This document shows, one piece after another, positions 17,022 to 19,797 of a stretch of 50,731 nucleotides of DNA. The DNA is from an uncultured Pseudomonadota bacterium (GTDB taxonomy: Bacteria; Bdellovibrionota_B; Oligoflexia; Oligoflexales; CAIYRB01): NCBI GenBank assembly GCA_903915625.1, contig CAIWTN010000208.1:1-50731 (forward strand), given 5' to 3'. Position numbers and translations under genes: made by a program. The notes beneath the pieces are model-generated. The model ran no database searches. It saw only the letters and a program-made list of their open reading frames with translations, and was not told the DNA's origin. How positions within the stretch are numbered: the first letter of the stretch is position 1; each line of letters opens with the position of its first letter.

Positions 17022-17103
17022 CTGCTCTTTGTTTTAGTTGGGTACTAAGTAGCCTTTTTGTGCTAAACAGATGCGAAGGTAGCGCCATTTCGAGGTGTTA
17101 GCT

Positions 17104-19065
17104 ATGCCGCATTCGCGACGCAGGTTCTTCAAAATAGGTACGACTTTGGGTGGTATGCTGGCCCAAGGTGCTCGTGCCCTTTCGGATGTCCAAGTTCCCG
17201 GTCCTACATTTGAATTGCCGCGCAGTGAACTAGAAAAAATCGCTAGAACATTTACTTACGGCGTCGCGTCAGGTGATCCTCTACCAGATCGGGTGATCAT
17301 CTGGACTAGAGTGAGCAGTGAAGCGTCAAGTGTCCCTGTGCGCTGGCAGGTGTCCCTCGATCCCGAGTTTTACAACGTCGTGGCTGAGGGGGGCGCGAGT
17401 GCGGAGGCAAGTCGTGATTACACGGTCAAGATTGATGCGGTGTTGCCGCTTCCCGATACTACGTATTATTATCGGTTTCGTGCACTAGATTGCTGGTCCA
17501 TGATTGGGCGCACTCGCACCACTCCGATTGATAAGCAAAATATACGTCTGGCGATTGTAAGCTGTTCCAGTATTTGGTCGGGTTATTTTAACGCGTATGA
17601 AGTCTTGGCCAGGCGCAACGATATTAATGCCATCGTTCACCTAGGCGATTATGTCTACGACGTGCCCGATCCTGATGAATGCCGTAATCTACCGTCTGAC
17701 GCTATCAATTCTAGCAATCCGAATAGTTTAGAGGCCATTCGTCAGCGCTATCGATATTATCGCAAAGATCCGTTCCTACGGCATGCGCATCAGCAGCATC
17801 CTTGGGTCGTGGTCTGGGATAATCACGACATCGAAAATAATGCCGGCAAAGCGGCAAGTATCCAAGCTTTCCACGAATGGATCCCGATTCGTTCGCCCGC
17901 TCCCGGAGACGAGAGTCGCATCTACCGCCGCCTTTCTTTTGGTGGGATGCTGGATTTAATCATGCTGGATACGCGGCATATTGGCCGTGATTCCATTAGC
18001 GGCACAACTGGCAAAAAATCTATACTAGGTGATGAACAGTTCGACTGGTTGTCGGATGAGTTGAGGAAATCAACGGCGCATTGGCGGATCATCGGGAATC
18101 AGGTCCTACTTGCATCCTGTAAGATTTTCGGTCGGCCAATTTCAGAAAAGCTTTGGGACGGATTCCCCGCCGATCGGGAGCGTGTACTCCGAACTTTGAG
18201 CGATTTGTCGATTACTAATACGCTCGTGGTGTCCGGTGACGCTCATTTTTCTTTTGCGGCTAATCTAGACATTGATCATAAACCAGTGGCAGTTGAGTTT
18301 TTACCGACGAGTGTCAACCGCGGTAATCTCGATGAGCAGGTAAAAAAATCATTTCAGGGGATTGCCGCACTCGGCTTTCACGCCGCGGTTAAAACCTTTA
18401 ATCCGCACATTAGGTACTTCAATAGCACCGCGCACGGATACGGCATTGTAGACCTCCGCGACGAGGGGGCTAATCTTGAATTCTGGTACCTGCCGTACGT
18501 CGACATCACGCTCGATCAAACTATGGCATATGCAGCTTATGTTGGGAGTGGTGAGCAGCGAATTACCGCTCAGCATACGGAAGTATCGACTGGTCTAAGC
18601 TGCGGCGTGCCAGCGACTCGCGAACCTAAGCTTTACCAAAGCTCTATTGAGCTAGGTGGCTCTGGCGGAGCGTATTTTGACGATCTTGAGCATCTTGCGC
18701 TTACGGCAAGGCTGACTGGGCTCAAGCTTCGCTGCGGTGATCGTGTCGATGCGATTACGGCTTGCTACGCGGATGGTTCCAGCCTGACTCATGGGGGCCC
18801 GGGTGGCGAGGAAAAGGTGCTCCAGCTCCGTGACGACGAATATATCCGTCAGGTCCACATAGGCGCCGGCAGATTTCGTGGGATGGTGTCGGTGCACTAC
18901 CTTAAATTTGTCACCAGCCACGGCCGTATCTTAGAAGGTGGGAAAAATTCCGGAAAAAACCTTAAGTTTGCGGCTGATTCCGGACGCCACATTTTGGGAT
19001 TTCGCGGCCGAGGTGGTCAAGAGCTTGATAAAATCGGGCCAATATTTGCGCCCGATTTTGCCTAA
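17104..19065 (+). CDS. phoD: PhoD-type phosphatase with C-terminal jacalin-like lectin domain
   Basis: Exported phosphodiesterase/alkaline phosphatase of 653 residues. The Tat leader is SRRRFFKIG at residues 4-12. An N-terminal Fn3-like PhoD_N domain follows (VASGDPLPDRVIIWTRV, about 55-70). The catalytic domain has the metal-binding motifs LGDYVYD, WDNHDIENN, LDTRHIGR and SGDAHFS. After about residue 505 a second domain begins with ELGGSGGAYFDDL and ends with FRGRGGQELDKIGPIF, matching a jacalin-like beta-prism lectin. PhoD enzymes normally end after the catalytic domain, so this is an unusual fusion that may tether the enzyme to glycans. The ATG at 17104 has a GAGG about seven bases upstream; an in-frame GTG at 17095 is less likely. 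Confidence 0.9.
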   Translation: MPHSRRRFFKIGTTLGGMLAQGARALSDVQVPGPTFELPRSELEKIARTFTYGVASGDPLPDRVIIWTRVSSEASSVPVRWQVSLDPEFYNVVAEGGASAEASRDYTVKIDAVLPLPDTTYYYRFRALDCWSMIGRTRTTPIDKQNIRLAIVSCSSIWSGYFNAYEVLARRNDINAIVHLGDYVYDVPDPDECRNLPSDAINSSNPNSLEAIRQRYRYYRKDPFLRHAHQQHPWVVVWDNHDIENNAGKAASIQAFHEWIPIRSPAPGDESRIYRRLSFGGMLDLIMLDTRHIGRDSISGTTGKKSILGDEQFDWLSDELRKSTAHWRIIGNQVLLASCKIFGRPISEKLWDGFPADRERVLRTLSDLSITNTLVVSGDAHFSFAANLDIDHKPVAVEFLPTSVNRGNLDEQVKKSFQGIAALGFHAAVKTFNPHIRYFNSTAHGYGIVDLRDEGANLEFWYLPYVDITLDQTMAYAAYVGSGEQRITAQHTEVSTGLSCGVPATREPKLYQSSIELGGSGGAYFDDLEHLALTARLTGLKLRCGDRVDAITACYADGSSLTHGGPGGEEKVLQLRDDEYIRQVHIGAGRFRGMVSVHYLKFVTSHGRILEGGKNSGKNLKFAADSGRHILGFRGRGGQELDKIGPIFAPDFA

Positions 19066-19068
19066 GTC

Positions 19069-19551
19069 TCAAACCTTATCTAGGTCCTCAGCTTCCACTA
19101 CGAATGCAGCCCAGAAATCAGCAAGCTTAGCGATCACGGCAATGCGTTTGTAAAGGCGCTTGAGGTCCGCGCTAATTTGTTTGTCACCGCCACCGAGCTG
19201 GAAGTGGTGTAGGGCGTGTTCGAAGTAAACATCATCAAACTCACCGCGATCGTCAAATTCCGCCAGCTTCTCATGAATTTTTTGTAGCTTGTCGGTATCG
19301 GCTTTGGCCTTGGTCTGTCTTGATGTCGTCTCTTTCTCAACGTATGCGTCATAAAGCTTTTTGAAGCCAGCTTGGACTTCTGACTCGGGAGCAAAGCTTT
19401 TCGATAAAGCCTCGCGGCCCTCCGTGGTGCTGAGCAGCAGCTCGTACATCTGATCGCCGAGTGCATCGTATTCGTCGAACACTTTGTCCGGAGTTTTGAT
19501 AGCCTGGGCGTAGGTTAGGCTCGCGTTCTTGGTGCTTGATTTCTTAGACAT
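19069..19551 (-). CDS. Conserved-looking helical protein, unknown function
   Basis: Cytoplasmic protein of about 160 residues, charged and largely alpha-helical, with no signal peptide, membrane segment or cysteine. Lys-rich and Glu-rich helices between about 65 and 110 could form a coiled coil, and the last 50 residues contain an aromatic helix (LADFWAAFVVEAED). I do not recognise a family. The second of two adjacent ATGs (19551) has GGAG at a normal distance and is preferred; the first, at 19554, would sit too close to it. The stop lies four bases beyond the phoD stop, so the genes converge with almost no gap. Confidence 0.7.
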   Translation of the reverse strand: MSKKSSTKNASLTYAQAIKTPDKVFDEYDALGDQMYELLLSTTEGREALSKSFAPESEVQAGFKKLYDAYVEKETTSRQTKAKADTDKLQKIHEKLAEFDDRGEFDDVYFEHALHHFQLGGGDKQISADLKRLYKRIAVIAKLADFWAAFVVEAEDLDKV

Positions 19552-19797
19552 CATGACTCCGTGTGTTGATATTATTCCGAACAAATCTGGCAATTTGTTG
19601 TGGGCATCGAATGGTCAGGCTGTGTTGCCTGCCGAGCTGGCAAAATTCAATTTTCTTCGACTAACACAAGCAGTGTTAAAGACCTACAGAATATCCATAC
19701 GTCTGCACGTCATTCCTTATTTTATTATTTAATACAATGGTTTATAGTCGCGTACTAGGGGTGCAGCGTCCCCTTGCTCTCCGGGGGTTCGATCGCC

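Follow-up and report, generated by a model that had tools for sequence, protein, structure and literature searches.

The window, a 50,731-nucleotide stretch from an uncultured Pseudomonadota bacterium, contains an open reading frame in which a PhoD protein is joined to a C-terminal jacalin-like lectin domain (Table 1). The frame runs from an ATG at 17104 to 19065, with a GTG at 17095 as an alternative start. The ATG is supported by the orthologue in a second species of the genus (G002), because the open frame there begins one codon upstream of the equivalent ATG. A twin-arginine motif near the N-terminus was recognised by eye, an RR motif also occurs at the N-termini of the remaining fusions, and the fusion protein is putatively exported via the Tat pathway. 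Convergent with the fusion gene, a 174-aa protein lacking a Pfam match is encoded on the minus strand (19072-19593) and is kept beside it in G002 (92%).

Table 1. Features of the PhoD-jacalin fusion gene in the window
Feature	Position	Strand	Evidence
PhoD-jacalin fusion gene	17104..19065	+	653 aa; orthologues 92, 57, 56% identity over full length
Tat-type twin-arginine motif SRRRFFK, residues 4-10	17113..17133	+	By eye in sequence
PhoD_N domain, residues 53-139	17260..17520	+	Pfam PF16655, E 1.5e-26, 93.2 bits, over curated cut-off
PhoD catalytic domain, residues 149-459	17548..18480	+	Pfam PF09423, E 1.9e-74, 251.3 bits, over curated cut-off; Foldseek 2yeq E 3.5e-40
Cys154 (Fe3+ ligand Cys180 of B. 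subtilis PhoD)	17563..17565	+	Alignment; ligands PMC4223295
Asp182, Tyr185 (Asp207 and Fe-ligating Tyr of B. subtilis PhoD)	17647..17658	+	Alignment
WDNHDIENN: Asp239 (D265), Asn240 (D266, changed), Asn245/Asn246 (N271/N272)	17815..17841	+	Alignment
GDAH: Asp379 (D436), His381	18238..18246	+	Alignment
Linker/spacer, PhoD to jacalin	18499..18651	+	Lies between Pfam domains; model confidence lower at about residues 490-530
Jacalin-like lectin domain, residues 517-645	18652..19038	+	Pfam PF01419, 70.8 bits (74.7 in second search), cut-off 22; beta-prism model
GG loop GGSGG, residues 518-522	18655..18669	+	Sequence; loop role from PMC4059138
GxxxD sugar motif G638-QEL-D642	19015..19029	+	Sequence; motif from PMC4059138

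A PhoD-lectin fusion had been proposed in a sequence-only reading of this DNA, and it is confirmed by Pfam matches to PhoD_N, PhoD and Jacalin, by a beta-prism model and by orthologues. The lectin does lie in the region proposed for it (18610-19065), although the jacalin domain itself starts at 18652 and is preceded by a linker. The model of the full-length protein (pLDDT 79.4) matched B. subtilis PhoD best in Foldseek (E 3.5e-40), followed by purple acid phosphatases and then by mannose-binding jacalins. Against the NCBIfam PhoD model the protein scores 239 bits, below that model's strict cut-off of 1000. The view that PhoD enzymes are rarely fused to lectins agrees with our sample, in which none of 33 other PhoDs has such a domain and all have C-terminal tails of 31 residues or less. 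Among plasmid records with a PhoD match, 0 of 114 cover 80% of the query. Each half of the protein is an ordinary known domain, while the pairing and the changed metal ligand appear to be undescribed; our literature search found no account of PhoD joined with jacalin, though protein databases may still list the architecture.

The survey for further copies covered 58 genomes of the phylum, a contig scan reaching close relatives only, plasmid records and viral contigs. Of the six genomes of the genus, each from a different species, four carry the full fusion (100, 92, 57 and 56% identity), and with two more genera from another family of the same order (G028 and G032) it is full-length in six genomes in total. 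In G027, an N-terminal and a C-terminal piece each reach a contig edge and are probably one gene split between contigs. One of the orthologues derives from a Lake Pavin sediment assembly.

Searched against the PDB, the C-terminal 153 residues matched jacalin lectins, the best of which was the Parkia lectin (E 4.8e-13). AlphaFold2 modelling of the jacalin part with 14 aligned relatives gave a confident beta-prism (pLDDT 89.7, pTM 0.84), the top Foldseek matches of which were rice JAC1, horcolin, banana lectin and ZG16 (E 6e-12 and weaker, TM ~0.8); the predicted fold is thus the one that a lectin at this position was expected to have. In ZG16p and plant lectins, the GG loop and the GxxxD motif bind mannose (PMC4059138), and the GxxxD pocket of the fusion points to mannose/glucose-type sugars. 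The motif is present in five of the six full-length fusions. In G032 (L043) it has been lost (SDELY), and sugar binding therefore may not be universal among the fusions. This loss is what would be expected if the domain were structural, serving dimerisation, stability or protein-protein contact with sugar binding non-essential, and the lectin also diverges somewhat faster among the fusions than the PhoD half (38-56% identity vs 49-59% over residues 1-500). Such a role seems unlikely to us, given that the GG loop and GxxxD are kept together in the other five copies and that jacalin domains sit on other large proteins of the order, as expected for a shared targeting module. We prefer to see the lectin as a device that would hold the enzyme on glycans.

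A more specific proposal within the same line of thought is that the lectin steers the enzyme to mannans bearing phosphate, such as the mannose-phosphate-mannose diesters of fungal walls, with lectin and enzyme acting on the same polymer. The nearest solved relatives of the domain are mannose-binding jacalins, human ZG16p, which shares the fold, recognises phosphorylated high-mannose glycans (PMC4059138), and members of the PhoD family are known phosphodiesterases (PMC4223295). Because the motif does not reveal ligand specificity and is missing in G032, and because no linkage of the fusion gene to genes for phosphomannan degradation was seen, we consider this substrate decidedly unlikely and retain the broader reading of a phosphatase held on mannose/glucose-type glycans.

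Jacalin seems to be a reused module in this order. Vps62-jacalin proteins occur in a related family (L033:1474-3033, L034:262-1917 and L035:1477-2970); the Pfam Vps62 and Jacalin models were run on L033, and L034 and L035 were assigned by similarity. Another type (L027-L031 and L036), about 570-630 aa long, has a weak jacalin domain at the C-terminus and no further Pfam match; within the genus it occurs only in the two species without the PhoD-jacalin fusion, G003 and G005. Two pairs of these proteins, L027/L029 and L028/L030, are paralogues encoded next to each other. A jacalin tree of 15 rows did not show where the domain came from.

Metal ligands of B. subtilis PhoD (PMC4223295) were mapped onto the fusion by alignment. 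Nine metal-site residues were aligned, and the fusion keeps eight of them (Cys154, Asp182, Tyr185, Asp239, Asn245, Asn246, Asp379 and His381). The residues aligned with the Fe3+ site are C154, D182, Y185 and H381, the counterpart of the last being presumably a metal ligand in this fold. Of the Ca2+ ligands, D265, N271, N272 and D436 are matched by D239, N245, N246 and D379, and D266 is replaced by Asn240. The resulting WDNHD in place of WDDHE has its Asn in all 18 members of one clade, namely the fusions and twelve unfused Bacteroidota PhoDs (L004-L015, found via the peptide WSGYFNAY rather than WDNHD; that peptide, which adjoins the Cys ligand, could itself be a marker of the subclade), and Asp in 21 of 21 other PhoDs. 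The protein had been described as a complete PhoD enzyme, which holds for its PhoD_N and PhoD domains, both over their cut-offs, but not for the D266 ligand. Judged from these alignments, the fusion is a member of a divergent PhoD subclade rather than a standard Fe/Ca PhoD.

An Asn at the position equivalent to D266 resembles the GNH-motif ligand of purple acid phosphatases. The His2Asp1Asn1 set of those enzymes (PMC4223295) is not found at the second metal, where the Asn alone is similar to theirs; in the GDAH motif, Asp379 stands where purple acid phosphatases have His, and their His ligands are absent. In B. subtilis PhoD, changing D266 to Ala drastically reduces activity (PMC4223295). With the Asn fixed in the clade, a segment after DNHD, next to the Ca sites, that lacks about 16 residues relative to B. 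subtilis PhoD, and a CaB asparagine pair that G028, G032 and the Bacteroidota members have not retained, it might be argued that the DNHD subclade has lost phosphatase function and that the PhoD fold now acts as a binding or regulatory domain. We think this very unlikely: the other core residues in the alignment (Cys, Asp, Tyr, Asp, Asp and His) do not vary within the clade, which would be surprising for an inactive enzyme, the window's protein has both CaB asparagines, and we infer from the GNH motif and the purple acid phosphatase ligand set (PMC4223295) that Asn is the normal ligand at this place in purple acid phosphatases. The metal centre of the DNHD subclade is probably altered and still active. 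That it was rebuilt on purple acid phosphatase-like lines, with Asn for the Ca-binding Asp and the second Ca site partly lost, and that the subclade became in one lineage a lectin-guided phosphodiesterase for phosphorylated glycans, is a doubtful extension of this view.

A tree built from the catalytic parts of 39 PhoDs places the fusions in a single clade (100/99), whose sister group is the twelve unfused Bacteroidota PhoDs (joint clade 99/98). For the sampled genomes, this topology is most simply explained by a single gain of the jacalin domain within this order. No copy of the fusion was found in viral contigs. A recent transfer of the domain from eukaryotes was considered, and no sign of it was seen, as the GC content of the domain (0.55; GC3 0.53) is similar to that of its surroundings. 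Although the genome assembly is fragmented (252 contigs), the chance that the fusion is a product of chimeric assembly or of a frameshift between two genes is negligible, since other species and genera, in independent genomes, have it at full length and synteny is shared with G002; conservation in related genomes rules out frameshift, chimeric contig and chance joining alike.

Gene neighbours are mostly common to close relatives only, and between genera none is shared except a uracil-DNA-glycosylase-like gene a few kb off in G001, G004, G027 and G028. In G001 and G004 (L080:524-2747 and L081:6378-8521), the fusion adjoins a small second PhoD-like protein (~320-360 aa), which in G001 has a twin-arginine signal match, and a 330-aa protein lacking a Pfam match, with a c-type cytochrome and a superoxide dismutase also nearby. 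None of these four genes occurs in the window, and we draw no functional connection from them. A search of the window for Pho-box-like repeats gave no match, and the fusion gene there stands outside any operon with phosphate-uptake genes.

Across the genomes of the genus, PhoX is absent and no PhoA match rises above the family cut-off. Each species has one full-length PhoD, which is either the fusion (four species) or a canonical unfused PhoD on a distant branch of the tree (G003 and G005); in addition, G001 and G004 have the small PhoD-like neighbour, and G000 and G002 have a weak match elsewhere. One full-length PhoD per species, fused or canonical, suggests that the two substitute for each other in the genus. 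Because neither PhoX nor a PhoA above the cut-off was detected and there is one full-length PhoD per species, the fusion is probably the main exported alkaline phosphatase of the species that carry it, where it would be held at a glycan surface by its lectin.

Our preferred reading, to which we give a reasonable though far from firm degree of belief, is that the fusion is a Tat-exported phosphatase/phosphodiesterase of the DNHD subclade that gained its jacalin domain once and is the main secreted alkaline phosphatase of these species. The protein would leave the cytoplasm by the Tat route, and its jacalin domain would bind mannose/glucose-type glycans and keep the enzyme on a sugar-coated surface, be it the cell's own envelope, biofilm, detritus or other cells. 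There the PhoD domain could free phosphate from phosphoesters, phosphorylated glycans perhaps among them, in the service of phosphate scavenging. Four observations count against this reading, namely the Asn at D266, the G032 copy without GxxxD, the lack of a phosphate-uptake operon and the lack of a Pho box in the window. Phosphodiester cleavage at a glycan surface, as the sequence-only reading had it, remains the natural interpretation of a fusion with an intact mannose-type motif, with the reservation that one PhoD metal ligand differs. The targets named there (teichoic-acid-like polymers, lipid-linked sugars or prey walls) found no support: nothing in the analysis connects the fusion with predation or with wall polymers, its neighbours differ from genus to genus, and the GxxxD pocket points to mannose/glucose-type sugars. 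With a built-in lectin, a phosphatase would offer a simple example of how phosphate release can be aimed at sugar-rich surfaces.

Among known systems, B. subtilis PhoD (PDB 2yeq, PMC4223295) has in common with the fusion the PhoD_N and PhoD fold, the Cys/Tyr iron site and the other metal ligands, and the twin-arginine motif points to Tat export as a further putative likeness. The fusion differs from it in the D266 to Asn change, in the shortened loop after DNHD and in the jacalin domain, which replaces the C-terminal capping helix. The unfused Bacteroidota PhoDs belong to the same DNHD subclade, with 36-41% identity across the PhoD part, but lack jacalin and do not keep the CaB asparagines as a pair. 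PhoD ranks among the major marker genes for phosphorus cycling in soils and waters, and the enzyme is presumed to depend on iron and calcium; the DNHD subclade, in Bacteroidota and in the order of the fusion, may have different cofactor needs and be miscounted in phosphorus-cycling surveys. With the mannose-specific jacalin-related lectins (banana lectin, horcolin, ZG16 and rice JAC1) the fusion shares the beta-prism, the GG loop and GxxxD at ~24-30% identity, whereas it is bacterial and joined to a phosphatase. The Vps62-jacalin proteins and the L027-L031/L036 type resemble the fusion in carrying jacalin at or near the C-terminus of a large protein, but have different partner domains, and the jacalin tree gives no common source for them.
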